NCBI GenBank assembly: GCA_946480815.1
Contig: CAMLLB010000054.1
Span: 1-28,624 of the forward strand
DNA: 28,624 bases
Direction: 5' to 3'
Source: an uncultured Flavobacteriales bacterium
GTDB taxonomy: Bacteria > Bacteroidota > Bacteroidia > Flavobacteriales > Crocinitomicaceae
This document shows positions 1 to 27,698 of this stretch, piece by piece. Both the position numbers and the translations under genes were made by a program. The notes under the pieces are model-generated. The model was not told the origin of the DNA. It ran no database searches and was given only the letters and a program-made list of their open reading frames with translations. The first letter of the stretch is position 1; every line of letters begins with the position of its first letter.

Positions 1-2445
1 GACGAACAGAAGTTGAAGACTCATCGTACGGTTTATAGTTATGATCAGCTGAATCGTATCAAGGACATGAATGGTGCATATATGGGCTTCAGCACAAGTG
101 GAACCATTACTAGCCCGGCTTCGGGGTATAAGAGTGAGTATGGTTTTGATGCAAACGGAAATATCTTGTCGATGAAGAATTGGTCAGCCACTGACGATAC
201 AGAGTCAGGTTCCCAACAACAAATTGATGATTTGAGTTATAAGTATTATGAACAAGGAACCTCACCAGCAGTTTACACCCCTGGTGGATCAAGTAATACG
301 ACCTTAAATGCAAGTAATCGTTTGGCATACGTAGATGATGCTTTAGGAACGAGTGTAATTCCGGGCGCAGATATTGCTGATCAGTCGGCAGGTAATTATC
401 GCTACGATGCAATAGGTCAGTTGACAACCGATATAGGTGCTGACATCGGTACTTCAGGTGACCCAGTGAAGATTTTATGGACGGTAAACAACAAGGTAAA
501 ACAGATCACTAAGACGAGTACAGGTGATGTGATTAGTTTCACATATGATGGAATGGGTAATCGTATTTCTAAGAAAGTTTCACATACGAACGGGAATTAC
601 GAAAAGACTTTTTATATCTTAGATGCACTAGGCAGGGTTATGAGTAGCTACACACGCAACAAAACAGCTCCGTCAGGTCCGATTTATTTGGTGCTGGCTG
701 AACGGAATATTTATGGAGAAGGCCGTGTAGGAATGGAACTGGCTGACCAACGTATGTTTGGACAACCTCAAACCGCGCCGGCACCGGTAACATCAGGTAA
801 TGTGCTGGTAGATCAGTATATTGGAGATAAACGTTATGAATTGAGTAATCATTTGGGCAATGTGCTTAATGTTGTTACGGATAGAAAGTTACCTCAAGAA
901 TTGAATACCTCTTTTGGACGCTTTGATGGTTCAAACGATCTAGCACAAAGTAGTTCGTTTACTGCCCCAATTAGTAATCAGGTGACTGTAGAATGTTGGG
1001 TTCGAACTACATTCTCCGGAGGAGGGGTTTCTAAGGGAATTATAGCCCATTCAGGAACCAACTCAGATATCAGATTACAAATGTTGGATAATGGTAAGAT
1101 CGTATTTTTAGGTAAGCACGGTACAGCATCCTTTTACAATACCATAAGTACGGGAACTGTAAATGACGGAAATTGGCACCATGTTGCAGGTACTGTTTCC
1201 ATTGGAGGTAGCACTACTGTTTGGAAAACGTATATTGATGGAGTACTTCAAAGTACAAACTCTTATGCAGTTACTACTTTATTCCCGACTCTTACCTCTA
1301 ACTTCAAAATTGGTTTCGGCGGTACTTATTTCCCTGGAGATATTAAGGAAGTTAGCTACTGGAATACAGCTAAATCAGCAGCAGAGGTCTTGGCCGATAA
1401 AAATGCTGGTTCATTTGCAGGTACTGAGAATAATTTGATTGGTTATTGGCCTTTGACAGATAACACGAGTCCAAGTCATGATTTAAGTAGTGGGAACCAT
1501 CCGGTTTCGATGCTGAATGGAGCCTATTTTGTAACTGCCGCACAGGGAACTGTAGGCTCTTATATTGCGGATGTAAATTCTTATTCTGATTATTATCCAT
1601 ATGGTATGAAGCTACCATACAGATCTGGTCAGGAGAATACCTCTTATCGTTACGGTTTCCAGGGTCAGGAGGAGGATGATGAGATCAAAGGAGATGGTAA
1701 CAGCATTAATTTTGAATTCAGAATGCACGACCCACGTATTGGAAGATTCTTTGCAACCGATCCTTTGGCTGGGAAATATCCTTGGAATAGCCCGTATGCA
1801 TTTAGTGAAAATCAAGTAATTGCTTTTCTTGAATTGGAAGGTAAGGAAAAGAAAGAAGCTCCTAAGGTAGAATTATGGTCAATAACGCAGACTTATGAAT
1901 TCAAAATAAAAGAAGATGATTATGCGACTGGTGATGAAACCTATGGAAGAGTAACATTTCAGTTGGTGGTGAGAAAATGGTCAGACAATACCTATTCTTA
2001 CTCTGCGGTTGTGGATGGCTTTCAGGATACTGGGGTTGGTGCCGCGGGAGAAGTCAGTTATGACGAGAATGGAGTTTTCACAATGAGTGTGACATTTAGT
2101 GACGGGGAAACTACCGTAACCAGGGAAAAAAATTATTCAATCGGCGCAGAAGTTGAGGGTGTTGGTGGAGAATATTCGGAATCGATTAGTTGTGGGGTAA
2201 CGAAAAATGGTGCATCGATGACTGAGGGCTTTTTCGTGACTTTTAATAAGGAAACGAATTGTTTTGAGCCGAGTAAGAGTTTTCCAAAATCAGATGACAT
2301 GTCTGAAGAAGCGGAAGAGCTATTTTACGATTCAGATTCTTTTCCCCAAGACGGTTGGGGAAAATGTGATGATTGGTATGAACCGGATGACAACCTGGAA
2401 ATATATATTACAATAACAAAAGATTATGATGTGGAAAAAAAATAG
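1..2445 (+). CDS. Rhs/YD-repeat protein, 3' part, with LamG-like insertion and variable C-terminus
   Basis: The reading frame is open to the left edge, so the true start lies outside the window; the TTG at 13 is only the first start-like codon. YD-type repeats ([28 protein letters not shown]) occupy about 40-560. The Rhs-associated core follows in two pieces. The first ends with [17 protein letters not shown] near 840-890. The second begins with [10 protein letters not shown] near 1577 and runs through [20 protein letters not shown] to [11 protein letters not shown] near 1820. Between them, about 910-1540, sits a jelly-roll segment resembling LamG/concanavalin domains ([31 protein letters not shown]). 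After the core junction ELEGKE the last ~200 residues are unlike the rest: acidic, beta-rich and without a family I recognise, as expected of a polymorphic-toxin tip or an exchangeable tail. The gene overlaps the next by 20 bp. Rhs identity is secure; a toxin role is inference. Confidence 0.9.
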
Positions 2446-8281: not shown

Positions 8282-8289
8282 TATCTTTG
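8282..8289 (+). promoter_or_regulatory. putative -7 element of the sterol/mevalonate operon
   Basis: TATCTTTG is an exact match to the Bacteroidota -7 consensus TAnnTTTG. The -33 position offers only an imperfect TTAG (8257-8260). Transcription would begin around 8295, leaving almost no leader before the ATG at 8300. A downstream in-frame ATG (8324) would leave a normal leader. No other promoter-like site is visible within the nine-gene block, whose junctions are too tight to hold one outside coding sequence. Confidence 0.5.
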
Positions 8290-8299
8290 TGCCCTACAA

Positions 8300-9418
8300 A
8301 TGGAGAAAATAATGATTAGAAGGATGACATATTATTCCTTTCATGTGTCTGAGTTGGTTTATCTTATGCAAATGAAGAAAGAATTCAAGCAATTCAAACC
8401 TTCAGAGCACCGCTTGACAGATTTATCACACTCCACAGATGATTTAAGTTATTGCTACGAAGCACTTAAAAAGGTTTCGCGATCTTTTGCTGTCGTGATT
8501 CAGCAATTACCGGATGATCTGAAAAACCCTGTTTGTTTGTTTTACCTTGTTTTGCGGGGTCTTGATACCATTGAAGATGACATGAACATCGACAATGCTG
8601 TCAAAAAAGACATGTTACTTTCATTTGCCGACCGCATAAACAAAGAAGAGTTTATCCTTGAAGACGTTGGAGATACCGAAGATTACCGGGACCTAATGCT
8701 TCATTTTGATAAAGTAATTCGTGAATATCAAAAGCTTGGTCCTGAATACAAAGAAGTTATTACCGAGATAACCAATGAGATGGCAATCGGGATGAATAAG
8801 TATGCGCATGAAACCGTTGAATGTTATAAAGACTGGGACGATTATTGTTATTACGTTGCCGGATTGGTTGGAATAGGTTTGAGCAGATTGTTTCTTGCCT
8901 CAAAATTAGAGACAAGTCCGAAGCTTTCTGACAAAAACCTCAGTAATGAAATGGGACTGTTCTTGCAAAAAACAAACATCATTCGTGATTTTGCGGAAGA
9001 TTTGGAACAAGGACGTATTTTCTGGCCGGAGGAATCCTGGAAAAATAAAGCAAATACATTGACCGAATTGCAAGCAGATGAGAAAAACGGACTTGCTGCG
9101 CTGAATGAAGTGGTACTCAATGCACTTGGACATGTTCCGGCTTGTTTGGAGTTCTTGGAATGTCTGGACAATCAGAAAATTTTCCGTTTTTGTGCCATTC
9201 CGCAATTGATGGCAATTGCAACGCTGAAAGAGTTGTATAATAATCCCCAGGTCTTACACCAAAATGTAAAGATCAGAAAAGGGAAAACCGCTAAATATTT
9301 TATTTCAATTCAGGACTTTAGCAGTACGAAAAAAGAATTTATCTCTATTCTTGACAGTTTGGAGAAAAAAGATAATACAGGTAAAATTAAATCAATATTA
9401 GCCAAAATTCAACGATGA
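8300..9418 (+). CDS. sqs: squalene synthase, eukaryote-like
   Basis: Condenses two farnesyl diphosphates to squalene via presqualene diphosphate with NADPH. The 372-residue protein carries the signature blocks of FDFT1/ERG9 enzymes: SRSFAVVIQQL (60-70), FYLVLRGLDTIEDDM (81-95) with the first Asp-rich motif DTIEDD, YCYYVAGLVGIGLSRLF (182-198) and MGLFLQKTNIIRDFAED (218-234) with the second Asp-rich motif. These read far closer to the eukaryotic enzyme than to bacterial HpnC/HpnD or CrtB. The C-terminal membrane anchor of eukaryotic forms is absent, so it should be soluble or peripheral. The frame allows starts at 8300, 8312 and 8324; the last fits the promoter and the family N-terminus best, and the longest is listed. 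Its stop overlaps the next start (ATGA). It leads the operon although its substrate is made by the eighth gene. Confidence 0.95.
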   Translation: MEKIMIRRMTYYSFHVSELVYLMQMKKEFKQFKPSEHRLTDLSHSTDDLSYCYEALKKVSRSFAVVIQQLPDDLKNPVCLFYLVLRGLDTIEDDMNIDNAVKKDMLLSFADRINKEEFILEDVGDTEDYRDLMLHFDKVIREYQKLGPEYKEVITEITNEMAIGMNKYAHETVECYKDWDDYCYYVAGLVGIGLSRLFLASKLETSPKLSDKNLSNEMGLFLQKTNIIRDFAEDLEQGRIFWPEESWKNKANTLTELQADEKNGLAALNEVVLNALGHVPACLEFLECLDNQKIFRFCAIPQLMAIATLKELYNNPQVLHQNVKIRKGKTAKYFISIQDFSSTKKEFISILDSLEKKDNTGKIKSILAKIQR

Positions 9419-10731
9419 GCACAGGTGAATTTGATATCATAGTGATTGGTGCCGGAGTTGCCGGAGGAGTATTTGCAGCTTCCCAACCCGCGAGCACGCG
9501 CATTCTTGTTGTAGAGCGCGACCTTACAGAACCGGATAGAATTATCGGGGAATTAATGCAGCCGGGAGGAATTCAGGCCCTGAATGAACTGGGGCTCGGT
9601 CATTTACTGGAAGGAATCGACGCGCAGGAAGTCAACGGATATAATCTGATCAAGGGTAATGACCGGTTCACTATCCACTATGATGAAGTACAAAAAGGAA
9701 TCAAGGGAATTGGTTTGAGAAACGGAAAGTTCCTGACAAATATTCGAAAAGAACTTGAAAAAAGAGAGAATATTACCTTAGTTCAGGGAAACGTTACCCA
9801 AATCCTGGAGGACAATAACACCATTATCGGTGTAAGTTATACACAGGAAGATGGAACGAGTATCTCACAATACGCAAAATTAACCATCGTTTGTGATGGG
9901 CCAATGTCTGTGTTGCGTGATAAGTTGAGTAAAGTAAACAAAAAGGTTACGTCCTATTTCATGGGATTGGTTCTGAAAGATTTGGAATTGGAGTTTCCTT
10001 CTTATGGCCACATGATCGTTACGGGTGATTTTCCAATCCTTGTTTACCCGATTCACACCAATGCTTATCGGATCTTAATTGATTATCCCGGTGGAAAAGC
10101 TCCCAAAATGGGTAAAGAATCCATTGAACGATTGAAGGAATCAGTGGTAAAAATATTACCTGAAGAAATGATCAATTCATTTTTAAAGGCAATGGAGGAA
10201 GATCAGCTAAAAGTGATGCCGAACCACGCTATGAAAAATCAGGCATTTCGTATGAAAGGCGCTGTACTTTTAGGCGATTCATTAAATATGAGACATCCTT
10301 TAACCGGTGGTGGAATGACGGCAACTTTCTCAGATATTCTTTGTCTGAATGGCGAATTGGCAGGAATTGATTTTCAAAATGAAACGAAACTGGAATCCGC
10401 CGTTAATGAATATTACAGGAACAGAGGGAAAAATGTAGAGACAATCAACATTTTGGCAAACGCTTTGTACGAGGTATTTACCGATGCTGAATTAAAGGAA
10501 GCATGTTTTGAATATTTACAGAAGGGTGGAGAACAAGCTACAGGCCCGCTTTCTATCCTGTCCGGAATAAACAAAAACAAACAATTCCTGTTGAAACACT
10601 TTTTTAAAGTGGCGATGCAGCATCCGGTACATTTTATTATTAAACCAGCGAAGCAAATACGCTTATATAAAAATGCAATCAGAATTATTCGTCCGATTTT
10701 GAAGGATGAAGACGTTCCGGCAATGATATAA
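9415..10731 (+). CDS. squalene monooxygenase (squalene epoxidase)
   Basis: FAD-dependent enzyme that converts squalene to (3S)-2,3-oxidosqualene with O2. The 438-residue protein has the dinucleotide-binding fold at the N-terminus (DIIVIGAGVAGG, residues 7-18, then VVERD at 32-36). The squalene-epoxidase hallmark EPDRIIGELMQPGG follows at 39-52, with DAQEVNGY at 69-76. The second FAD motif is LLGDSLNMRHPLTGGGM at 285-301. These blocks are near-identical in pattern to human SQLE/ERG1. The N-terminal membrane region of eukaryotic forms is absent. It overlaps the squalene synthase gene by 4 bp and shares one base with the isomerase start (TAATG). The O2 requirement means the pathway works only under oxic conditions. 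Confidence is high because the adjacent cyclase uses its product. Confidence 0.95.
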   Translation: MSTGEFDIIVIGAGVAGGVFAASQPASTRILVVERDLTEPDRIIGELMQPGGIQALNELGLGHLLEGIDAQEVNGYNLIKGNDRFTIHYDEVQKGIKGIGLRNGKFLTNIRKELEKRENITLVQGNVTQILEDNNTIIGVSYTQEDGTSISQYAKLTIVCDGPMSVLRDKLSKVNKKVTSYFMGLVLKDLELEFPSYGHMIVTGDFPILVYPIHTNAYRILIDYPGGKAPKMGKESIERLKESVVKILPEEMINSFLKAMEEDQLKVMPNHAMKNQAFRMKGAVLLGDSLNMRHPLTGGGMTATFSDILCLNGELAGIDFQNETKLESAVNEYYRNRGKNVETINILANALYEVFTDAELKEACFEYLQKGGEQATGPLSILSGINKNKQFLLKHFFKVAMQHPVHFIIKPAKQIRLYKNAIRIIRPILKDEDVPAMI

Positions 10732-11750
10732 TGGAGAAAATAGAACACGAATCGCTTGAAGCAGCAGACTTAAGGAAGCAAAATCATTTGGATTTGGCTT
10801 TTGCTTCACAGAGTGCCCTGTCAGATGGTCGTTTTTATTACGAGCCAATGCTGGAAGGACACCCTGAACAATCAGACTTGTCTATTCAATTGGGGAACAA
10901 AACATTGCGTTATCCAATCTGGATTTCAAGCATGACAGGCGGTACGTCCGCTGCAGGCCCGATCAATAAAATGTTGGCAAAAACTGCCGGCAAATATGGT
11001 TTTGGTATGGGATTGGGTTCCTGTCGCATTATTTTGGAGGACAATACTTATTTCGATGATTTTAACCTGCGCCCGATCCTTGGTGATGCTTCTCCGCTTT
11101 ATGCCAATGTGGGCATTGCTCAAATTGAACGATTAATAGATAAAGGCCAGGCATCCAAGTTAAAAGTACTGGTAGATAAGCTGGATGCAGACGGCTTGAT
11201 TGTACACGTCAATCCATTGCAGGAATGGTTACAGCCGGAAGGCGATCTAATTCAACGTTCTCCGCTTGTCACAATTAAGCAGTTGTTGAATGAAATTGAC
11301 ACCAATATCATTGTGAAAGAAGTTGGGCAGGGCTTTGGTCCTGAAAGCATGAGAGAATTACTCAAACTGCCGATTTTGGCAATCGACTTTGCTGCAAATG
11401 GCGGAACAAACTTTTCAAAATTAGAGTTGTTACGTAACGAACCATTGAAAGCTCATTATGAAGATATTATTGCTTTGGGGCATTCTGCTTCCGAAATGGT
11501 TGATTTTTTAAATACGGCAATCCAGGAACTGGGATCCGAACGTAAGTGTAATAACGTGATTATAAGTGGTGGGATAAAAAACTTTTTGGATGGTTATTAT
11601 TTAACCTCTAAGGCAAGCATCCCTGCTATTTATGGTCAGGCAGCGCCATTCTTAAAACACGCAAATGAATCACAGGAAGCCCTGGATACATTTGCCGAAA
11701 TCCAGATAAAAGGATTACTGATGGCTCAGAAATTTTTAAAAATAAGGTAA
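10731..11750 (+). CDS. fni: type 2 isopentenyl-diphosphate delta-isomerase (FMN-dependent)
   Basis: Interconverts IPP and DMAPP using reduced FMN. The 339-residue length is typical. Visible family features are RKQNHL near residue 15, SSMTGGT near 66-72 (FMN/substrate loop), GFGMGLGSCR near 90-99, and the HVNPLQEWLQPEGD block, which contains the Gln-Glu pair (substrate and Mg2+ binding). VKEVGQGFG, DFAANGGTNFSKLE and a phosphate-binding ISGGIKNFLDG near the C-terminus complete the TIM barrel. It starts on the last base of the epoxidase stop codon and ends flush with the next gene. Supplying DMAPP as primer for the prenyl transferase explains its place in the operon. Confidence 0.95.
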   Translation: MEKIEHESLEAADLRKQNHLDLAFASQSALSDGRFYYEPMLEGHPEQSDLSIQLGNKTLRYPIWISSMTGGTSAAGPINKMLAKTAGKYGFGMGLGSCRIILEDNTYFDDFNLRPILGDASPLYANVGIAQIERLIDKGQASKLKVLVDKLDADGLIVHVNPLQEWLQPEGDLIQRSPLVTIKQLLNEIDTNIIVKEVGQGFGPESMRELLKLPILAIDFAANGGTNFSKLELLRNEPLKAHYEDIIALGHSASEMVDFLNTAIQELGSERKCNNVIISGGIKNFLDGYYLTSKASIPAIYGQAAPFLKHANESQEALDTFAEIQIKGLLMAQKFLKIR

Positions 11751-13061
11751 ATGGTACAAATAGAGGGGTTCTCGAAAAAGAACAAGCAAGAGAAGTTGGA
11801 AACAATTACAAAATTTTTTAAGTATCCTGAGGAAGCGATGGAAACATTTAAAAGTTTTGACCACCCGGAGGTTGCTGTTCAGGAAGTAATTAATGAGTTT
11901 AGTGAAAATACCATATCCAATTTCCACTTACCTTATAGCATTGCTCCGAACTTTTTGATCAATGGGAGAACATTTGCTGTTCCAATGGTGATTGAAGAAA
12001 GTTCTGTCGTTGCTGCTGCTTCAAACAGCGCGAAGTTCTGGTCTGCTTTTGGAGGATTTCATACAGAGATTGTTGATACCGAAAAAGTAGGACAAGTTCA
12101 CTTCTTGTGGCACGACGACATTGAAAAGCTGATCAATCGTTTTGATGAGCTAAAACAGCTTTTCCTGAACGGTTCAGAAGATATTACCGTAAATATGCGT
12201 AAACGTGGCGGTGGTATCAAGGATATCGTTCTAAAAGACCTTTCAGATAAGGAACCCGGATTAATGCAGTTGTTTGTCACTTTTGAAACGAAAGATTCAA
12301 TGGGTGCAAATTTCGTAAACTCCTGTTTGGAACGATTTGCCGAAATATTCCGAAACTGGCACCAAAACCAAGCGGACTTAAAAGAGGACGGATTGGAGAT
12401 CATTATGTCCATTCTCTCTAACCTTACACCGAATTGTGTGGTTAAGTGCTGGGTGGAAACGGATGTGAAGAACCTGGATGGAATTGTTCCGGGTGTTTCC
12501 GGGAAGGAATTCGCAAAAAAATTCCATACTGCCGTGAGAATTGCACAAGTAGATCCTTATCGTGCAACAACACATAACAAAGGGATTTACAATGGTATTG
12601 ACGCAGTTGTATTGGCTACAGGAAATGATTTCAGAGCGGTTGAAGCTTGCGGCCATGCGTATGCAAGTATGAACGGTACTTATACTTCCTTAACGAACTG
12701 TACGATTGAGAATGACATTTTCCGTTTTGAGCTGACTTTACCGATCGCTTTGGGAGTAGTTGGCGGATTGACGAACTTACACCCGCTGGTGAAACTGTCA
12801 CATGAATTGTTGGATTTCCCGAATGCAAGAGAATTGATGGGAATCGCAGCAGCAGCAGGATTGGCAAACAACTTCGGTGCGGTGAAATCATTGACAACAA
12901 CCGGAATTCAGCAAGGACATATGAAAATGCACTTGTTCAATATCATGAATCAATTGGAGGTGAAAAAAGAAGACCGGGATAAAATCGTAGCTTACTTCAA
13001 AGACAAAAACGTCTCTGTATCTGCAGTTCGTACATATGTTGAATCTCTTCAATTGGTTTAA
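11751..13061 (+). CDS. mvaA: hydroxymethylglutaryl-CoA reductase, class II
   Basis: Reduces HMG-CoA to mevalonate, the committed step. The 436-residue protein is of the class II (bacterial) type, without a membrane domain. The conserved block IAPNFLINGRTFAVPMVIEE contains the catalytic Glu (82-83) and is followed by SSVVAAASNSAKFW. ATTHNKGIYNGIDAVVLATG contains the catalytic Lys277, GNDFRAVEA the catalytic Asp293, and GIQQGHMKMHL the catalytic His390. All four catalytic residues of the family are therefore present. The cofactor (NADH or NADPH) cannot be told by eye. The ATG follows the isomerase stop directly. No HMG-CoA synthase gene is present here, so the substrate must come from a gene elsewhere. 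Confidence 0.95.
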   Translation: MVQIEGFSKKNKQEKLETITKFFKYPEEAMETFKSFDHPEVAVQEVINEFSENTISNFHLPYSIAPNFLINGRTFAVPMVIEESSVVAAASNSAKFWSAFGGFHTEIVDTEKVGQVHFLWHDDIEKLINRFDELKQLFLNGSEDITVNMRKRGGGIKDIVLKDLSDKEPGLMQLFVTFETKDSMGANFVNSCLERFAEIFRNWHQNQADLKEDGLEIIMSILSNLTPNCVVKCWVETDVKNLDGIVPGVSGKEFAKKFHTAVRIAQVDPYRATTHNKGIYNGIDAVVLATGNDFRAVEACGHAYASMNGTYTSLTNCTIENDIFRFELTLPIALGVVGGLTNLHPLVKLSHELLDFPNARELMGIAAAAGLANNFGAVKSLTTTGIQQGHMKMHLFNIMNQLEVKKEDRDKIVAYFKDKNVSVSAVRTYVESLQLV

Positions 13062-13961
13062 TTGACAGTTCCGGAAAATAGTATAACGACCTATAAGGCA
13101 TCAGGAAAACTGATGCTTTTTGGTGAATACCTGGTTCTGAATGGATCAGACTGCCTGGCTTTTCCCTTAAAATTCGGACAAACACTTTCGGTAGAAAAGT
13201 CTGATGAACTTATCTGGGAAAGTTATGCCAAACACGGAAGATGGTTTTTTGCTTCTATGAGCAATGATTTTACTGTTCTGGAAACCAATAACGAAGATGC
13301 AGCGGAAATTTTAAGACGCTTGTTTTTGGTGATAAGAACGGAAAAACCCGATCTTGATTTCAAACAAAAATTTAAGTCAGAAGCGAATTTTGAATTGAAT
13401 TGGGGCCTTGGTTCCAGTTCTACGTTGATCAGCTTATTGAGCCAGTGGTCGGGCGTCGAAGCGAAGAAACTGCTTGATGTATCTTTCGGCGGATCAGGTT
13501 ACGATGTAGCTTGTGCAACAGCGGCAGGTCCGATTATCTATGCGAATGGAAAAGTTAAAAAGGAAGTAAATCTCCCGGAATCAATAACGGATAAATTGTT
13601 GTTTGTCTATTTGGGGAATAAGCAAAACTCACGGGAAGAAATAAAACGCTTTAAGGACAGGAAGGTTGATCAGCATCACATTGATACTATGAATGCACTG
13701 ATCTCAAATGCATTACAAACGGATAAAATCGAAGTGTTTGAGCAGCAATTGGATCTTTCCGAAGAGTTAATTTCTTCAATAATAGGGACTGCTAAATTAA
13801 AACAGCGTTTATTTGCAGATTATTCCTACAGCATCAAATCGTTGGGTGCATGGGGAGGAGATTTTTTTCTTGCAACGTACAGAGATCTGAAAACGGCAAA
13901 AAACTATTTTGAAGGAAAAGAATATGATGTATTATTTACCTATCAGGAATTCATAAAATAA
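13062..13961 (+). CDS. GHMP-family kinase, probable phosphomevalonate kinase
   Basis: A 299-residue GHMP kinase. Motif 1 is KASGKLMLFGEYLVLNG (12-28), the ATP loop is NWGLGSSST (113-121), the third conserved region is GGSGYDVACATAAGPIIY (143-160), and the C-terminal glycine motif is GAWGGDFFLA (about 263-272). GSGYDVA followed by IIY resembles the GSGFDVA signature of phosphomevalonate kinases more than mevalonate kinase's HGxPSGxD. Since mevalonate kinase and the decarboxylase are both present downstream, this gene fills the remaining phosphorylation step by elimination. It begins with TTG directly after the previous stop (TAATTG). The first in-frame ATG would fall inside motif 1, so TTG is the best start. 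The specific substrate is inference. Confidence 0.8.
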   Translation: MTVPENSITTYKASGKLMLFGEYLVLNGSDCLAFPLKFGQTLSVEKSDELIWESYAKHGRWFFASMSNDFTVLETNNEDAAEILRRLFLVIRTEKPDLDFKQKFKSEANFELNWGLGSSSTLISLLSQWSGVEAKKLLDVSFGGSGYDVACATAAGPIIYANGKVKKEVNLPESITDKLLFVYLGNKQNSREEIKRFKDRKVDQHHIDTMNALISNALQTDKIEVFEQQLDLSEELISSIIGTAKLKQRLFADYSYSIKSLGAWGGDFFLATYRDLKTAKNYFEGKEYDVLFTYQEFIK

Positions 13962-15017
13962 ATGGAAACAGACAAGGAATTGATGAATAAAGTAAAAGTA
14001 ACGTGGCGCTGCCCGTCTAATATTGCAATTGTTAAATACTGGGGAAAAAAAGGAAATCAAATACCTTGTAATTCTTCGTTAAGTTTGACTTTGTCAAATT
14101 CATTTACAGAAGTCGAAGCCGAATTATCAGAAAAGACAACGGATGAAGCGGTTCAGTTATCCTACTATTTTGAAGGTGAAATAAATGAAAAATTCGGTCA
14201 GCGTGTGGCTAAATTTTTAATCGATAATCGCGAATACTTCCCGTTTGTAGCTGAAAAGGCAATTACCATCCATTCCTCCAATAGTTTTCCGCATTCAGCC
14301 GGGATTGCTTCTTCTGCATCGGCATTCGGAGCTATTTCTTTGGCACTTTTGGATATTACCTACAGCTTACAGGGAAAAGAAAAAGACGCGGTCTTTTATG
14401 AGGAGGCAAGTAATCTGGCCAGATTAGGAAGCGGAAGTGCATCACGAAGCATGTTCCCCGGATTTGCTTCATGGGGAATCAATGAACAAATCCCGAACTC
14501 TTCGGATCAGCATGCAATTGAGATTAAGGATGTACACCCGACGTTCCGGAACATGAAGGACGCCATTCTGATCATCGAAGATGAACCCAAGAAAGTATCC
14601 AGTTCCGTTGGTCACTCCTTAATGAATAATCATCCCTATGCGGAAAATCGTTTCAAACAGGCAAACGAACGTACAGCTGAATTGGTTGAGATTCTGAAGA
14701 CCGGGAATATGGATGCGTTTATCCACATGTGCGAATCAGAAGCATTGACTTTGCACGGGATGATGATGACATCCATGGATTATTATTTATTGGTAAAGCC
14801 GGGAACCATCACAGCCATTGAAAAATTGATGGAATTCCGCAAGGAAAGTAAAGTTCCCGTTTGTTTTACATTGGACGCAGGTCCGAATGTGCACGTCCTT
14901 TATCCAAAAATGTACGAAGCAGAGGTAGAAGCGTTTATCCATACCGGTTTACGCGATACATATAAAAAAGTCATCTTCGATCAGGAAGGAAACGGCCCAA
15001 CAAAAATGAATTCGTAA
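13962..15017 (+). CDS. mvaD: diphosphomevalonate decarboxylase
   Basis: ATP-dependent decarboxylation of diphosphomevalonate to IPP. The 351-residue protein shows the family's PSNIAIVKYWGKK near residues 18-30, SFPHSAGIASSAS (108-120, phosphate loop), ARLGSGSASRS (153-163) and TLDAGPNVHVLYP with the catalytic Asp304. The catalytic Lys in KYWGK is also kept. Length and motif order are normal. The ATG abuts the preceding TAA, and an alternative Met at residue 8 would also preserve all motifs. The gene sits between two other GHMP-superfamily members, an order consistent with a compact lower mevalonate pathway. Confidence 0.95.
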   Translation: METDKELMNKVKVTWRCPSNIAIVKYWGKKGNQIPCNSSLSLTLSNSFTEVEAELSEKTTDEAVQLSYYFEGEINEKFGQRVAKFLIDNREYFPFVAEKAITIHSSNSFPHSAGIASSASAFGAISLALLDITYSLQGKEKDAVFYEEASNLARLGSGSASRSMFPGFASWGINEQIPNSSDQHAIEIKDVHPTFRNMKDAILIIEDEPKKVSSSVGHSLMNNHPYAENRFKQANERTAELVEILKTGNMDAFIHMCESEALTLHGMMMTSMDYYLLVKPGTITAIEKLMEFRKESKVPVCFTLDAGPNVHVLYPKMYEAEVEAFIHTGLRDTYKKVIFDQEGNGPTKMNS

Positions 15018-15020
15018 GAA

Positions 15021-15962
15021 ATGGAAAGCGTTAATTCAAAAATTCTGGTGTTTGGAGAATATGGCGTTTTACACGACGGTATGGCCCTGACAATTCCATT
15101 CAGTAAATTTTCCGGGCAATTGTGCTATCCTGAAAATGGAGAAGAAAGCGCAATGGCGGTATTATCTAACAAAGGTATTCGGGAATTCTTCAAGCATATT
15201 TTAGAGAATCACACAGATGAAACATTCAAATTGAATGTAAATGAACTGTCCAAGGAATTGGATAAAGGATTGTTTTTCAGAAGTGATATTCCACAAGGTT
15301 TCGGACTGGGAAGTTCGGGTGCACTTGTTGCCGCAGTATTCTTGCGTTACCTGGAAAAAGCCGGTGATTTCAAGGACGAATTGAAACATTTAACAATGGA
15401 TCGCATTCAAAGCCTGAAAAGCTGTTTAGGAGATCTGGAAGGGCATTTTCATGGAAAAAGTTCGGGAATAGATCCGTTGAGTATTATTATCAATGAACCG
15501 CTATTATTAAAAGCCAACAAGGAAATAGTAAAGGTGGAGATTCCCGCTTACAATGAAAACGGAAAAAACATCCTGTTTTTGCTGAATACCGGGATGGCAA
15601 GAAATTCCGAAAAACTGATTGAGAAGTTTCATCGTGCCTATGAAAAGGAAGACTTTCAGAAAAAACTGGAAACGAAATTAATCAAATATGCCAATGCAGG
15701 AATTACTGATTTCCTGAAAGGAGATACCGAAAATTTCTACCGGACCCTGGAGAAATTAGTTCGTTTTCAATTGGATGAAATGCATTACCTGATCCCGGAA
15801 AAGTATCATTCCATTGTTAAGCAAGGGTTGGATACAAAGAACTATTATTTAAAAATTTGTGGAGCCGGTGGTGGTGGATTCATGATCGGGTTTACCGAAA
15901 ACTGGGAAGAAACGCAGCAATTACTAAAAGACGAAGAGTTAGAAATTTTCTATAGATTTTAA
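15021..15962 (+). CDS. mvk: mevalonate kinase
   Basis: Phosphorylates mevalonate at C5 with ATP. This 313-residue GHMP kinase opens with KILVFGEYGVLHDG (7-20). The ATP-binding PQGFGLGSSGAL follows at 91-102, then EGHFHGKSSGID (140-151), the mevalonate kinase signature with Glu, His and catalytic Asp151. CGAGGGGFMIGF near 280-291 is the C-terminal glycine-rich motif. The HGxxSGxD block distinguishes it from the other GHMP kinase in the operon. It begins 3 bp after the decarboxylase stop. The order of enzymes along the operon does not follow the order of reactions. Confidence 0.92.
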   Translation: MESVNSKILVFGEYGVLHDGMALTIPFSKFSGQLCYPENGEESAMAVLSNKGIREFFKHILENHTDETFKLNVNELSKELDKGLFFRSDIPQGFGLGSSGALVAAVFLRYLEKAGDFKDELKHLTMDRIQSLKSCLGDLEGHFHGKSSGIDPLSIIINEPLLLKANKEIVKVEIPAYNENGKNILFLLNTGMARNSEKLIEKFHRAYEKEDFQKKLETKLIKYANAGITDFLKGDTENFYRTLEKLVRFQLDEMHYLIPEKYHSIVKQGLDTKNYYLKICGAGGGGFMIGFTENWEETQQLLKDEELEIFYRF

Positions 15963-15965
15963 ATT

Positions 15966-16955
15966 ATGACGACAACAACAACTACAATAAAACAGGAATT
16001 GGAAATCCAAAGAAAAGCGATTATTCAATTTTTGGAGACTGATGCATTGGAAGGTTTTCCAAGCAACTTAGCTGATTCCACTTATCATATCATGACATTG
16101 GAGGGAAAGCGTTTGCGTCCGATTATGGTATTGATGGCGGCTCAAGGTTTTGGTGTCAGTACTGAAGATGCTATGTCTGCTGCAATTTCGATTGAGGTGT
16201 TCCATAATTTCACACTCGTTCATGATGATATCATGGATAAAGCAGTTTTGCGAAGAGGAACGATCACTGTCCATGAAAAATACGGGGTAGATAAAGCCAT
16301 CGTAACAGGAGACGCTATGTTACCGCATTCTATTGCTTTATTGATCAAAGGAAACGAAGAAAAGTCTCCGGCCCTGTTAAAAAGTTTCCTGAAAATGGCT
16401 CAGGAAGTGATGGAAGGACAGCAATACGACATGGAGTTTGAAACCCAGGAAAGTGTCACTGTGGAAGAATACATGAACATGATCCGTCTGAAAACATCCG
16501 TTCTGTTCGGATGTGCTTGTGAGATCGGTGCCATGTTGGGTAATGCTTCGGTTGAAGATCAGAAAAAACTCTACGATTTCGGACTTTATACCGGATTGGC
16601 ATTCCAAATTATGGATGATTACCTGGATACATTCGGTGATGATTCATTTGGAAAACGAATCGGAGGTGATATCTTATTGAATAAAAAGACATTCTTGTTA
16701 ATCAACGCGATGCAACATGCAAATGCTGATCAAAAAGCGCGTATTACGCAACTATTTGATGAACAGGATGAAGAAGCAAAAATCAGTGGATTCCAGGCTA
16801 TTTTCAAAGAAATCGGGGTAGCTAAAATTGCTTTGGATAAAATGGAAGAATTACATGATAAATCTGTTGAAGCAATCATGACTTCCGGTCTTTCTGAAGA
16901 AGACAAACGCAAAATGATCGAATTGGGTGAAATCATGCTTCGCAGAACAACCTGA
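15966..16955 (+). CDS. polyprenyl diphosphate synthase (presumed FPP or GGPP synthase)
   Basis: Head-to-tail prenyl transferase, 329 residues. GKRLRP lies at 47-52. The first Asp-rich motif is DDIMD at 87-91, of the compact DDxxD form without the two-residue insertion of typical bacterial FPP synthases. It is preceded by HNFTLVH, so Phe82 is at -5 and Thr83 at -4 relative to the motif. The second motif is FQIMDDYLDTFGDD with DDYLD at 217-221, followed by GKRIGGDILLNKKT. The operon logic demands FPP for squalene synthase. However, an aromatic only at -5 also occurs in type I (archaeal-like) GGPP synthases, so chain length is uncertain and the product may be a mixture. The enzyme lies 3 bp after mevalonate kinase and 6 bp before the cyclase. 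Confidence 0.9.
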   Translation: MTTTTTTIKQELEIQRKAIIQFLETDALEGFPSNLADSTYHIMTLEGKRLRPIMVLMAAQGFGVSTEDAMSAAISIEVFHNFTLVHDDIMDKAVLRRGTITVHEKYGVDKAIVTGDAMLPHSIALLIKGNEEKSPALLKSFLKMAQEVMEGQQYDMEFETQESVTVEEYMNMIRLKTSVLFGCACEIGAMLGNASVEDQKKLYDFGLYTGLAFQIMDDYLDTFGDDSFGKRIGGDILLNKKTFLLINAMQHANADQKARITQLFDEQDEEAKISGFQAIFKEIGVAKIALDKMEELHDKSVEAIMTSGLSEEDKRKMIELGEIMLRRTT

Positions 16956-16961
16956 TACCCG

Positions 16962-19214
16962 ATGAATTTTGATCAGAAAGATCCGTCTTATTTTTGGGAC
17001 ACGTGGAAATTTTCTTCAAAGAACGGACAACAATCCTGGCACTTTGAAATTCCGGAAGAGCTAAAAGGAATCATTCAAAGTGAATCTGACTGGGACAAAC
17101 CCGAGGGTCAGGCTTTTTTAGAAGCTTTTGACCGTGCATTTATTTTCGACAAGAAAGTCAATCCAAATTCGGGTGACCGCGTATTTCGTTATTTGCGGAA
17201 TAAACAGGTCGGTGAACCGAAAATTGTCCCATCGGATGACTTGCTTTCACTCAAAGACAGGGCCCGGATCGGGTTATTAAATGGTTTTTCGTTTTACGAA
17301 ACATTACAGGAGCCTGATGGAAATTGGGCGGGTGATTACGGTGGTCCGCTTTTCCTGATTCCCGGATTGATCATCGCATCATACATTACTGATTCCCCTT
17401 TTGAGAAACCGATGCAGGTTTTAATGAAGCGCAATTTATGGAATCACCAAAACGAAGATGGTGGTTGGGGATTACATATCGAGGGACATTCAACGATGTT
17501 CGGAACAGTTATGCAATACGTGACTTTGCGCATTTTGGGAGAAGATCTTTCAAATCCGGATATGAAACGTGCGCAGGATTGGATTTTAAGCCACGGTGGA
17601 GCCATTAAAATTCCACAATGGGGCAAGTTCTACTTATCGGTCCTGAACGTCTATGATTGGAAGGGAAATGATGCACTTTTACCAGAAATGTGGAAATTCC
17701 CGAAATGGATGCCTTTTCATCCAGGAAAATACTGGTGCCATAACCGGATGATTTTTTTACCGATGTCTTATTGCTTTGGTAAAAAAGTGAAGTCGGAATT
17801 GACACCTTTGGTCAAAGAATTAAGAAAAGAGCTCTACACAACGGATTATGATTCCATTGATTGGAAAAAAGCCCGTCGTGAGGCATGCGAAATTGATATT
17901 TTTCATCCGGTGAACAAGTGGTATTACCGCCTGAGTAAAATTACCAACGCATATGAACGCATTCACTCGCGCTGGTTTCGGAAAAAAGCCCTCAAATATG
18001 TCGAAGATTACATCGATCACGAAGATATTCACACACGCTATATCAATATCGGTCCTGTAAACCAGGCCATTAATTCTATTTGTGTGTGGCACAATCACGG
18101 AAAGGATTCCGAGCAGTTTAAAAACCACGTGAACCGGTGGAAAGATTATCTGTGGATTGCGGAAGACGGTGCTAAAATGGGAGGGTATAACGGATCTCAA
18201 TTATGGGATACAGCGTTTGCCGGCCAGGCCTTACTGGAAGCAGATATGGAAAGCAGTTTTCCGGAAATGGCAGAGAAAATCTATCACTTCATCGATATCA
18301 CGCAAATTGATCGTAATCCGAAAGAGCATACCAAATATTGGAGAGATGTAACGCTCGGTTGCTGGCCCTTTTCAACCATTGATCATGCATGGGCAGTAAC
18401 GGATTGCACCTCAGAGGGAATGAAGACCGCGCTTTTGTATAACCACAAAGAGCAGATCAAAAAGCAGAATCCCATTGATTTGGAGCGTTTAAAACCTGCT
18501 GTTGACTGGTTGTTATTTATGCAAAACAAAGACGGTGGCTGGGCTTCGTATGAAAGACAACGGGCCCCGAAATGGATTGAAGCATTGAATCCTGCGATGT
18601 TATTCGAAAACATCATGACAGAAGTAACCTATACGGAATGTTCTTCGGCAACGATGCAAGGATTAAAGGAATTCTCGGAAAATTATGACTACCGCAAGGA
18701 AGATATTAAAAGAGCATTGGATCGTGGCGGGAAATTTTTAGAATCCAAACAAGATCCCGATGGCTCCTGGTATGGCTGTTGGGGAGTATGTTATACCTAT
18801 GGGACCTGGTTCGGGATCGAAGGATTACTAGCAACCGGCCATGAAGATTACAAGCATGCTGCACCTTCGCCAAAGATCCAAAAAGCATGTGATTTTTTGT
18901 TGAGCAAACAACGCAGCGACGGCAGTTGGGGGGAATCTTTTGAATCGTGTGTAGAACACCGGTACATTGAACACGAAGACGGCCAGATAATCAATACGGC
19001 GTGGGCACTTCTTGCATTAATGAAAGCAAAACATCCGGACAAAGCTGCTATTGAAAAAGGAATTGCCTTTATTCTTTCACGTCAGGAATCAAACGGTGAT
19101 TTCCCGCAGGAAGGAATTTCCGGTGTATTCAACGGGAACTGCATGGAGACATATACTTCGTATCGAAATGTTTTTCCTTTGTGGGCAATAGCGCGTTATT
19201 ATCGCCATTCCTAG
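16962..19214 (+). CDS. osc: oxidosqualene cyclase (sterol-forming triterpene cyclase)
   Basis: Cyclises 2,3-oxidosqualene to a tetracyclic sterol. At 750 residues it has the full eukaryotic OSC length. The catalytic motif is DCTSE at 481-485 (DCTAE in most OSCs), not the DxDD of squalene-hopene cyclases. The conserved YWCHNRMIFLPMSYCF (the active-site His of WCHxR), NGSQLWDTAFAGQALLEA and TYTECSSATMQ, whose Cys hydrogen-bonds the catalytic Asp, are present. So are QW-type repeats (GGWASYE, GSWYGCWG, GSWGESFE, GDFPQE). Product-determining sites, mapped by alignment to Arabidopsis CAS1 positions 410/477/481, are Tyr409, His475 and Val479. Tyr and His are as in cycloartenol synthases; Val is as in lanosterol synthases. 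Cycloartenol, lanosterol, parkeol or a mixture are all possible. As a monotopic membrane enzyme it should sit on the inner membrane. It is the last gene of the block, and no terminator is visible behind it. Confidence 0.95.
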   Translation: MNFDQKDPSYFWDTWKFSSKNGQQSWHFEIPEELKGIIQSESDWDKPEGQAFLEAFDRAFIFDKKVNPNSGDRVFRYLRNKQVGEPKIVPSDDLLSLKDRARIGLLNGFSFYETLQEPDGNWAGDYGGPLFLIPGLIIASYITDSPFEKPMQVLMKRNLWNHQNEDGGWGLHIEGHSTMFGTVMQYVTLRILGEDLSNPDMKRAQDWILSHGGAIKIPQWGKFYLSVLNVYDWKGNDALLPEMWKFPKWMPFHPGKYWCHNRMIFLPMSYCFGKKVKSELTPLVKELRKELYTTDYDSIDWKKARREACEIDIFHPVNKWYYRLSKITNAYERIHSRWFRKKALKYVEDYIDHEDIHTRYINIGPVNQAINSICVWHNHGKDSEQFKNHVNRWKDYLWIAEDGAKMGGYNGSQLWDTAFAGQALLEADMESSFPEMAEKIYHFIDITQIDRNPKEHTKYWRDVTLGCWPFSTIDHAWAVTDCTSEGMKTALLYNHKEQIKKQNPIDLERLKPAVDWLLFMQNKDGGWASYERQRAPKWIEALNPAMLFENIMTEVTYTECSSATMQGLKEFSENYDYRKEDIKRALDRGGKFLESKQDPDGSWYGCWGVCYTYGTWFGIEGLLATGHEDYKHAAPSPKIQKACDFLLSKQRSDGSWGESFESCVEHRYIEHEDGQIINTAWALLALMKAKHPDKAAIEKGIAFILSRQESNGDFPQEGISGVFNGNCMETYTSYRNVFPLWAIARYYRHS

Positions 19215-19254: not shown

Positions 19255-19821
19255 ATGATGACAGAACTCTTGCAGTATTTCAACAATTTCAACAGGCTTT
19301 CAAAAGAAGCTGAAAACGCTATTATTGAAATTTCCAGGGAATTAAGGATAAAGAAAAACACCGTAATCCAGGACATAGGGCAAACCTGCAAAACGATTTA
19401 TTTCATAAAAAAAGGAGTTGCCCGGATTTACTACTTCAAAGAGGATATTGAGATAACAGAATCCTTTGCTTTTGAAAACAATATTCTTGCACGCGTGGAA
19501 AGTTTGTTCCGGAATAAACCCTCAAAAAAGGCAATTCAGCTATTGGAGGATTCAGAACTCATTGCCATTAATGCGAATCTACTTTTCAAGTTGTATGATC
19601 AATTCCCGGAAATCGAACGCTTGTTTCGTTTGATTTTTGAATCAGCTTATGTCGATACGGTAAATCGAATCGAAACTATCCAATTCCATACGGCAGAGGA
19701 AAGATATAAGATGCTCCTGAACGAATCTTCAGATGTCATCAAAAGAGTTCCATTAAAGCACATCGCATCTTATTTAGGTATTACACCGGTTAGTTTAAGC
19801 CGGATCAGAGCAATGAAGTGA
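19255..19821 (+). CDS. Crp/Fnr-family transcriptional regulator
   Basis: A 188-residue regulator. The N-terminal two-thirds form a cyclic-nucleotide-binding-like beta-roll (KNTVIQDIGQTCKTIYFIKKGVARIYYF and following strands). A long dimerisation helix around FPEIERLFRLIFESAYVDTVNRI precedes a C-terminal winged helix with PLKHIASYLGITPVSLSRIRA as the recognition region. The cAMP-contacting RxSxxA/FGE motifs of classical Crp are missing and there is no Fnr-type cysteine cluster, so the ligand is unknown. This degenerate form is common in Bacteroidota. ATG codons at 19255 and 19258 are both possible. A near-consensus -7 box (TACTTTTA, 19244-19251) lies immediately before the start. Only 40 bp separate it from the cyclase, so read-through is possible, but control of the following transporter is the more usual arrangement. 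Confidence 0.88.
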   Translation: MMTELLQYFNNFNRLSKEAENAIIEISRELRIKKNTVIQDIGQTCKTIYFIKKGVARIYYFKEDIEITESFAFENNILARVESLFRNKPSKKAIQLLEDSELIAINANLLFKLYDQFPEIERLFRLIFESAYVDTVNRIETIQFHTAEERYKMLLNESSDVIKRVPLKHIASYLGITPVSLSRIRAMK

Positions 19822-24791: not shown

Positions 24792-25343
24792 ATGGCACAA
24801 ATTTTTATCGCAATTACAGTCGATGCAATTACACTGGCGCAAAGTAAACCCGGAGGTTCATGGAATGCTCCAATTAGCTTAGGAAGCTACAGTTCTTCTG
24901 ATGTTTATGTAGAAATGATGGCACAAGGAAGTGCTGTTGTCAACGACCAGGGAGGATCAGAACTAACGGTTTCTGCTAATGTCGGAGATGAAATTGTCTT
25001 CACTATTTCAGCTCCTGGCGCTGGTCAAAATTATTATCCGGTGCTTTATAACACGGTACTAAGCAATACTAACGTAAGAAGTTTAGGCCCGAATACAGCA
25101 GTTTGGAACAACTATTGCCTTCAATCAGGAGGTTCGGGAAGTCAGCCGAATTTTGCCAATACCATCCCTACGGGATATCCGAATGCCGGCAGCCCCAACA
25201 CATTTGTTTGTGCACAATGGTTATTCCAGGTTAATGGCGCAGGATCGACACAATACAACATGTCTTTTGCGGTAATGGACACTCAAACCGGAAAAGCCAT
25301 CGGCTATTACGTTTGGGATCCGTTCATTAATGTTAACAACTAA
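24792..25343 (+). CDS. PixA/AidA-family (inclusion body) protein
   Basis: A 183-residue beta-sandwich-like protein without a signal peptide. It starts with an alternating strand (IFIAITVDAITLAQS), has VSANVGDEIVFTISAPG, which corresponds to the 'GDxIxW' region of the family, and ends in NMSFAVMDTQTGKAIGYYVWDPFI. That terminal GYYxWDPxI signature is characteristic of the AidA/PixA family. Members form cytoplasmic inclusion bodies in Xenorhabdus or are quorum-dependent proteins in other proteobacteria; their biochemical role is unclear. A 58-bp element shared with the next gene precedes it, and a hairpin follows. The short mature length and intracellular location agree with the family. Function here is not deducible. 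Confidence 0.8.
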   Translation: MAQIFIAITVDAITLAQSKPGGSWNAPISLGSYSSSDVYVEMMAQGSAVVNDQGGSELTVSANVGDEIVFTISAPGAGQNYYPVLYNTVLSNTNVRSLGPNTAVWNNYCLQSGGSGSQPNFANTIPTGYPNAGSPNTFVCAQWLFQVNGAGSTQYNMSFAVMDTQTGKAIGYYVWDPFINVNN

Positions 25344-26945: not shown

Positions 26946-27698
26946 TTATGCATTCCGTTCGTTTACTATCTCCTTCCATCTGGTAAGTATCAATTGTGTG
27001 TAAATTTCTTTTTCTAGTCCATATGAACCCAGCGCAAAACCATCGTTCCATTCAATCAGTGCCGTTCTGCCGTCATCCAAAACTCCAAAGTCAATACCAT
27101 AAGCATCTGTTCTTTGATTTGATTTCTCAAAATCGTAGATTGCATTTTCCACAACTTCCATATTCAATGTTAGAGCTTTGTCACCATCATAGTTCCTCAC
27201 TCCGACAATTCTCGACTTGTTTACAAACACCCGATACTCAGAAAGCCAGTTAACAACCGATGAACAGTACAAATCAGTATCCTTTGCTATCCCATGCAAG
27301 CGGTATAAGTCTCTATTTGAGTTTATGACAAATCCTGTAAAAAGTTTGGCTTTCGATTTAGGTTTCACGAAAATGTTCCCTATATCATTTTCATGACTTC
27401 TCAGTAATAAGTTTCTAATACTACTTTCCCATACATTTCGGTTCAAGTATTTTCTCAGACTTTGAGGATACGAATCATTCGTCCAGTTGATTCCAAGTAG
27501 TTTAAAAACATTCATCATTGTTGGGTTATCACCAACAACCAAGGTGGTATCGTCAATCAACAACTGATTTCTCATCAATCTTTTGGTCGTAAAAAGCTTA
27601 CATTCTATTCCCCTGGCTTCTAAAATTTCCTTTATATCCATGTGTTCCGGCTCCATCTTGTTATTACCATATTCATGAATGTATGCTTTTGAAATCAT
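26946..27698 (-). CDS. ATP-grasp domain protein, R2K-like clade
   Basis: A 250-residue protein. The N-terminal ~75 residues look like a pre-ATP-grasp domain (IKEILEARGIECKLFTTKRL, LVVGDNPTMM). The ATP-grasp core shows NIFVKPKSKAKLFTGF with a nucleotide-binding Lys (FVKPK, 110-114), NWLSEYRVFVNKSRIVGV (150-167) and AYGIDFGVLDDG followed by ALIEWNDGFALGSYG (213-227), which provides the Mg2+-binding Glu/Asn pair. These match stand-alone ATP-grasp proteins of the DUF4343/R2K type, which form amide bonds between a carboxylate and an amine; the substrate is unknown. It stands alone, convergent with the GH64-like gene and divergent from the DUF2461 gene. Confidence 0.8.
   Translation of the reverse strand: MISKAYIHEYGNNKMEPEHMDIKEILEARGIECKLFTTKRLMRNQLLIDDTTLVVGDNPTMMNVFKLLGINWTNDSYPQSLRKYLNRNVWESSIRNLLLRSHENDIGNIFVKPKSKAKLFTGFVINSNRDLYRLHGIAKDTDLYCSSVVNWLSEYRVFVNKSRIVGVRNYDGDKALTLNMEVVENAIYDFEKSNQRTDAYGIDFGVLDDGRTALIEWNDGFALGSYGLEKEIYTQLILTRWKEIVNERNA

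Follow-up and report, generated by a model that had tools for sequence, protein, structure and literature searches.

Among bacterial sterol producers, Fluviicola taffensis RW262 is reported to make cycloartenol (Wei et al. 2016, PMC4919349), with Fluta_3221 as squalene epoxidase and Fluta_3214 as oxidosqualene cyclase, and no later sterol enzymes were found in this organism by these authors. In Methylococcus capsulatus, epoxidase and cyclase genes are adjacent according to their locus tags (MCA2872-2873; PMC4919349), and as in the locus described below both enzymes are encoded together. The precursor genes of such epoxidase-cyclase pairs in other bacteria are not discussed in that paper, in which neither the word 'operon' nor the word 'mevalonate' occurs. 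In contrast, the DNA analyzed in this study, a stretch of 28,624 nucleotides from an uncultured Flavobacteriales bacterium of the Crocinitomicaceae (contig CAMLLB010000054.1, assembly GCA_946480815.1; hereafter the window), carries a run of nine genes holding all steps from 3-hydroxy-3-methylglutaryl coenzyme A (HMG-CoA) onward. Judged from gene content, order and spacing, this locus is very probably one operon by which a Fluviicola-like bacterium makes a tetracyclic sterol from HMG-CoA. The kind of pathway is known, but its arrangement is new, and a single sterol producer is known from this lineage. No published description of the nine-gene unit was found in the literature searched, whose coverage excluded most subscription journals.

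The nine open reading frames (ORFs) are located on the plus strand at positions 8300-19214, all open and with zero internal stops. Along the DNA, they encode squalene synthase, squalene epoxidase, isopentenyl diphosphate (IPP) isomerase, HMG-CoA reductase, a GYDIA kinase, decarboxylase, mevalonate kinase, prenyl synthase and cyclase (Table 1). An earlier reading of the DNA made without database searches, referred to here as the sequence-only reading, had described nine consecutive plus-strand genes with such roles, which is borne out by family assignments and motifs, and recomputation of the eight junctions gave exactly its values (-4, -1, 0, 0, 0, +3, +3, and +6 bp). All steps in its gene list are present, but the real order along the DNA differs from the pathway order. 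Also, the pathway it called complete is so from HMG-CoA onward, whereas HMG-CoA synthase is absent from the window and was undetected in cyclase-bearing relatives. The host, taken there as Bacteroidota, belongs to the Fluviicola group. Co-transcription, as proposed in the same reading, is supported by the tight spacing and its conservation in relatives; such short, conserved same-strand junctions are those expected of an operon, and a single transcript is therefore likely.

In the eleven nearest cyclase loci (L001-L011), identity was 77-89%, and the record titles name Fluviicola, Taishania, Crocinitomicaceae, Flavobacteriales, Bacteroidia, and one Glaciecola. The latter (L001, CP034120.1, genome G001) is a complete genome titled Glaciecola amylolytica, by name a gammaproteobacterium, which carries the Fluviicola cassette, was included among the family genomes searched and is probably a mislabelled Fluviicola. 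Within the family, a cyclase was detected in 16 of 240 genomes (E <= 1e-30) and HMG-CoA reductase in 28 of 240 (E <= 1e-20), including all 16 cyclase carriers. Among 399 genomes of the order, the same 16 carriers and no others were found (E <= 1e-100), this sample either lacking Eudoraea, presumably a member of the order, or not detecting its cyclase. Eudoraea is a known cyclase carrier (PMC4919349). A genome search for the same gene order, as suggested by the sequence-only reading, revealed the complete run, with its order unchanged and on a single contig, in 11 of the 16 cyclase-bearing genomes (L001, L002, L003, L005, L006, L008, L009, L010, L095, L096, L097). Three further genomes (G058, G111, G152) agree, the run being split by contig ends with the order kept in each piece, and in the last two (G067, G068) the cassette genes are unlinked. 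The window, L001, L002 and L095 agree in the length of every one of the eight junctions; among the remaining eight loci of the 12, junctions range from -14 to +15 bp and are mostly within 6 bp. That the nine-gene order is found again in 11 other genomes, with the same spacing at all junctions in three, puts it far beyond chance. Of inactivating changes in a core gene of close relatives, which the sequence-only reading had named as evidence that would speak against the pathway, no case was seen in the cyclase. A seemingly broken cyclase in L011 was rejected as such, since the gap is a run of N.

One of these loci (L095, genome G064) is that of F. taffensis RW262, which has the same nine genes, order and junction lengths as the window, with proteins 85-96% identical. 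The sequence-only reading had taken known bacterial sterol producers to be without such a unit, a contrast that does not hold for this organism. In agreement with the operon prediction, Fluta_3221 to Fluta_3214 span eight consecutive tag numbers.

Table 1. Positions of features in the window (numbered from its first nucleotide) with the matches and motifs on which their assignments are based; residues of the cyclase in human lanosterol synthase numbering.
Feature	Position	Strand	Evidence
Promoter-like element TATCTTTG	8282..8289	+	Match to -7 box TAnnTTTG
Squalene synthase	8300..9418 (start probably 8312)	+	TIGR01559 384 bits, cut-off 287; DTIED, RDFAED motifs
Squalene epoxidase	9415..10731	+	PF08491 E=2e-74; GAGVAG and GDSLNMRHPLTGGGM
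Type 2 isopentenyl-diphosphate isomerase	10731..11750	+	TIGR02151 E=2e-53, 182 bits, under cut-off 281; RK..H, NPLQEWLQPEG retained
Class II HMG-CoA reductase	11751..13061	+	TIGR00532 271 bits, cut-off 260; PF00368 E=1e-88; EE, NKGI, GNDFRA, GHM
GYDIA-family GHMP kinase, probably phosphomevalonate kinase	13062..13961	+	TTG start
Diphosphomevalonate decarboxylase	13962..15017	+	TIGR01240 170.6 bits, cut-off 171.35; PF22700 E=5e-35
Mevalonate kinase-like GHMP kinase	15021..15962	+	TIGR00549 E=6e-20, 72 bits, under cut-off 163; GLGSS, SSGID, GAGGGG
Polyprenyl diphosphate synthase, farnesyl diphosphate expected	15966..16955	+	PF00348 E=2e-68; DDIMD, DDYLD; no NCBIfam cut-off passed
Oxidosqualene cyclase, Y381/H449/A450/V453	16962..19214	+	TIGR01787 662 bits, cut-off 323; DCTSE 481-485
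Crp/FNR-like cyclic-nucleotide-binding regulator	19255..19821	+	40 bp past cyclase
Large protein	13..2445		Laminin G-like domain; weak RHS-repeat match
PixA-type inclusion body protein	24792..25343		
R2K-clade ATP-grasp protein	26946..27698		

In the proposed pathway, HMG-CoA reductase would convert HMG-CoA to mevalonate, from which mevalonate kinase, GYDIA kinase and decarboxylase would yield isopentenyl diphosphate. Type 2 isomerase and prenyl synthase would then provide farnesyl diphosphate, and squalene synthase, squalene epoxidase and cyclase would form squalene, oxidosqualene and a lanosterol-type sterol, respectively. The window encodes the classical mevalonate set of HMG-CoA reductase, two kinases, diphosphomevalonate decarboxylase and isomerase, the step of each kinase being a probable assignment. 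The motif patterns searched were all present except for one of the three written for the epoxidase (the DG motif pattern). Comparison with the PDB backs the isomerase, for which 5 of 5 matches at E<=1e-10 carry the name IPP isomerase, and the decarboxylase, for which all 18 matches at E<=1e-5 are named diphosphomevalonate decarboxylase or a synonym. For the mevalonate kinase-like protein, PDB matches were weak, the best being a heptose kinase (E=0.003). Sequence comparison of the GYDIA kinase with the PDB gave no assignment, mevalonate kinase (E=0.09) ranking under proteasome subunits. By fold comparison, VIA-align pointed to phosphomevalonate kinase and Foldseek to mevalonate kinase; the protein is probably a phosphomevalonate kinase, as assigned partly by elimination. 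Several points weigh against the pathway as a whole. Isomerase, mevalonate kinase and prenyl synthase score under NCBIfam cut-offs and the decarboxylase narrowly under its own, both GHMP kinases and the isomerase are assigned from fold, motif and context, and genome-wide statements are based on the genomes of relatives, several of them drafts. Furthermore, Corallococcus coralloides, a sterol-gene carrier outside the group, showed no sterol in culture (PMC4919349).

The cyclase matched human lanosterol synthase in the PDB with 681 bits (E=2e-203) versus 134 bits for squalene-hopene cyclase, and TIGR03463 with 647 bits, its cut-off of 851 being unreached, versus 241 bits for TIGR01507. Oxidosqualene cyclases are marked by the motif DCT[AS]E and squalene-hopene cyclases by DxDD; the former catalytic motif is present as DCTSE at residue 481. 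By these features, the window protein is an oxidosqualene cyclase of the lanosterol/cycloartenol synthase type. Cyclases of 51-57% identity were also observed in four records (P0056, P0073, P0080, P0112) named Bacteroidales, Chitinophagales, and Bacteroidota.

The cassette genomes were also searched for the markers DXR and IspH of the methylerythritol phosphate (MEP) pathway. A DXR match was present in 221 of the 240 family genomes, 212 of them scoring over cut-off, and an IspH match in 15 of the 28 genomes given, and as a new observation both were matched in all 14 cassette genomes. As these genomes keep MEP markers, the mevalonate genes are probably a second isoprenoid supply beside MEP, dedicated to the sterol. 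In G067 and G068, DXR was matched and IspH unmatched. Three genomes with HMG-CoA reductase (G017, G114, and G154, the last of 2.0 Mb and maybe incomplete) matched neither DXR nor IspH, showed no clear HMG-CoA synthase and apparently represent mevalonate-only cells without a visible HMG-CoA source.

Unexpectedly beside MEP genes, an HMG-CoA synthase, as belongs to the classical pathway, was recognised in none of the 16 cyclase-bearing relatives. Searches with PF08540 and PF01154 were negative in 8 of 8 genomes (of 14 named control genomes, 4 and 7 were positive, respectively), and TIGR01835 gave 0 of 28 genomes over cut-off. In the 16 cyclase genomes, the latter model gave no or weak matches (best E 2e-10) to frames of 329-382 residues, a size that would suit FabH-type enzymes. 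Of the 12 cyclase-free reductase carriers, six show the enzyme clearly, at E 1e-41 to 1e-45 in frames of 510-526, a new contrast to the cassette genomes which also indicates that the search works in this family. With the HMG-CoA synthase of one of these six as query, 2 of 24 genomes were matched, both of them positive controls, and 0 of the 16 cyclase-bearing ones. Missing sequence is an unlikely cause, because the F. taffensis genome is one contig and that of L001 is complete by title.

A further arrangement is seen in genomes G067 and G068, where the cyclase shares 53% identity. A six-gene mevalonate operon (L169, L170) comprises isomerase, reductase, GYDIA kinase, decarboxylase, mevalonate kinase and prenyl synthase, i.e. 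the same six genes in the same order as in the window but without attached squalene/cyclase genes. The genes for cyclase, squalene synthase, epoxidase and a second prenyl synthase are located on other contigs (L098, L099), a separation that is new. The nine-gene form equals the six-gene order with squalene synthase and epoxidase in front and the cyclase behind. We infer that the cassette may have been assembled by adding these genes before and after the family's six-gene mevalonate operon, so that the direction of change looks like fusion, not fission.

The product of the cyclase can be considered from residues aligned to human lanosterol synthase. At these positions the window cyclase has Y381, H449, A450 and V453, and that of F. 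taffensis Y381, H449, G450 and I453, a difference that is new. Hence, the lanosterol-type V453 is present in the window together with A450, whereas the lanosterol-type T381 and C/Q449 are not. In bacteria, residue 453 alone is informative, V453 standing for lanosterol and I453 for cycloartenol with complete correlation in those tested (PMC4919349). Because of this rule, the window should make lanosterol, and we lean towards lanosterol as its main product, unlike the cycloartenol reported for F. taffensis, and towards a cassette ancestrally carrying A450/V453, in which the F. taffensis clade acquired G450/I453 through a joint change of both residues. Such coupling of cyclase residues was unexpected. 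A450/V453 occurs in the window and most cassette cyclases, including those of Taishania pollutisoli and Paracrocinitomix mangrovi, and G450/I453 in L095, L001, L008, L009, and L096; across an alignment of 140 rows that includes duplicates, V453 accompanies A450 in 60 of the 61 rows with A450. In a tree of 89 of these rows, 51 having been dropped beforehand (P0073-P0120, P0045, P0069, L012), the six G450/I453 rows of the Fluviicola group form one clade with support 100, nested in a set of 22 whose remaining 16 rows are A450/V453. F. taffensis, the one group member known to have been chemically tested, would accordingly be a derived exception in this residue pair. However, the tree is a quick one, and its deeper rows P0043 and P0050 (G450/I453) and P0044 (A450/I453) are placed at weakly resolved forks. 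Moreover, both forms carry the cycloartenol-type residues Y381 and H449, so that parkeol or cycloartenol may be formed alongside lanosterol. Eudoraea adriatica, another Bacteroidota, reportedly makes arborinols, a precedent for a pentacyclic arborinol-type triterpenol instead of a sterol. As this species is nevertheless listed as lanosterol-type (PMC4919349), V453 is no guarantee of lanosterol. For the window, a pentacyclic product is very unlikely, since its cyclase is 87% identical to that of F. taffensis, a host making a tetracyclic sterol (PMC4919349). By analogy to this enzyme, for whose host cycloartenol was reported, the window cyclase is expected to yield a tetracyclic sterol from oxidosqualene.

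The origin of the HMG-CoA and of the cassette allow further alternatives. A leucine shunt into mevalonate, which would likewise give HMG-CoA without HMG-CoA synthase, is described for Leishmania mexicana and Halobacterium salinarum (PMC8791446), the passages covered naming no bacterial case. In the cyclase-bearing genomes, gene content suggests that the HMG-CoA of the operon could similarly come from leucine breakdown (via isovaleryl-CoA, methylcrotonyl-CoA, and methylglutaconyl-CoA) and not from acetyl-CoA. This extends the best explanation and is a real possibility, although one to which we do not give the greater weight. Besides the distribution of HMG-CoA synthase among the 16 cyclase-bearing genomes and the six cyclase-free carriers, it is favored by G017, in which reductase, carboxyltransferase and lyase homologue are present beside the missing matches listed above. 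Three enzymes of the route were looked for, namely HMG-CoA lyase, the large carboxyltransferase and methylglutaconyl-CoA hydratase. A lyase homologue of at least 170 bits was detected in 26 of 28 genomes (partial with 109 bits in G058, none in G205), and 6 of 6 PDB matches of the F. taffensis copy are named HMG-CoA lyase; yet the lyase model gave 0 of 28 genomes over cut-off and matches at E<=0.001 in 14 of 14 control genomes, and such a lyase would also destroy HMG-CoA. A second large carboxyltransferase was found in 7 of 8 genomes with open frames of 550-574, five of which translate to 547-548 residues. The F. taffensis copy is a plausible subunit, with 413-485 bits to five chains named methylcrotonyl-CoA carboxylase. 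Its top three PDB matches are named otherwise, however, namely AccD1 (acetyl-/propionyl-CoA carboxylase, 506 bits), propionyl-CoA carboxylase (494) and carboxyl transferase domain protein (489); AccD1 presumably acts as methylcrotonyl-CoA carboxylase, and the remaining propionyl-CoA carboxylases reached at most 272 bits. The hydratase candidate of F. taffensis has generic crotonases as its best matches, with human methylglutaconyl-CoA hydratase far down the list, and the leucine-route genes are dispersed. No liu-type leucine cluster was seen beside the carboxyltransferase or lyase gene in ORF lists inspected by eye, without a family search of the neighbours. Alternatively, an unrecognised, e.g. 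non-homologous, HMG-CoA synthase may supply the operon. As for its origin, the sequence-only reading had considered that the cassette could move as a unit. Spread of the nine genes as a self-contained cassette by horizontal transfer would fit the patchy distribution of the cyclase in the family and the different upstream neighbour, a glyceraldehyde-3-phosphate dehydrogenase (GAPDH) gene, in L005, L006, and L097. Such spread is unlikely and found no support: the window has flanking genes in common with L096 on both sides, with L001 on the right and with L002 on the left, although distances differ and most flanks are short, none of the window's ORFs was recognised as a mobile gene by Pfam, some having no match at all, megablast gave no match to plasmid records, base composition is even, and the 399 genomes sampled from the order, with Eudoraea either absent or undetected, contained no carriers beyond the 16. 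The operon may have changed its site between the Fluviicola and Paracrocinitomix groups, as the GAPDH gene abuts it in these three loci.

Combining these aspects, MEP would serve housekeeping, a leucine-fed mevalonate branch without HMG-CoA synthase would be joined to the sterol genes, and a linked change of two residues would have switched the cyclase between the lanosterol and cycloartenol types. We regard this combined model as tentative and rather doubtful in its entirety; if true, amino-acid catabolism would directly drive a dedicated sterol factory. The operon touches the question of why bacteria make sterols and from which carbon, and the missing HMG-CoA synthase reduces the carbon-source question to one of labelling. 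With a single HMG-CoA-to-sterol operon in Fluviicola, Taishania and Paracrocinitomix, which have cultured members and MEP matches, the sterol branch could be separately removed or fed. Also, the natural pair of A450/V453 and G450/I453, in cyclases 84-88% identical to that of the window, offers a clean contrast for studying the choice between lanosterol and cycloartenol, which bears on the interpretation of sterane biomarkers.

With regard to the operon boundaries, the downstream of the two squalene synthase starts in Table 1 is probably the correct one, because six relatives begin at ATGATTAGAAGG, located at 8312 in the window; L002 resembles the window. The promoter-like element matches TAnnTTTG, the Bacteroidota -7 box consensus. 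In the window and eight loci of the Fluviicola/Taishania group (9 of 12 compared), such a box starts 18-33 bases ahead of the start called for the first gene, whereas L005 and L006 have matches at other distances only and L097 has none. These three loci without the box at this distance are those in which the GAPDH gene abuts the operon. There, the GAPDH gene, whose L097 copy was searched with Pfam, ends at most 3 bp from the start called for the squalene synthase gene and is perhaps co-transcribed with the latter. A scan with the sigma-70 consensus, uninformative for Bacteroidota, gave 22 promoter-like sites versus 29.7 expected, and the 12 terminator-like sites were hardly above chance (9.9 expected). 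The Crp/FNR-like regulator gene follows the cyclase gene on the same strand. It is probably not a member of the operon, because no close homologue was present behind the operon in the 11 other loci compared. Farther away, the window encodes a large protein with a Laminin G-like domain on its left side and, on its right side, a PixA-type inclusion body protein and an R2K-clade ATP-grasp protein.

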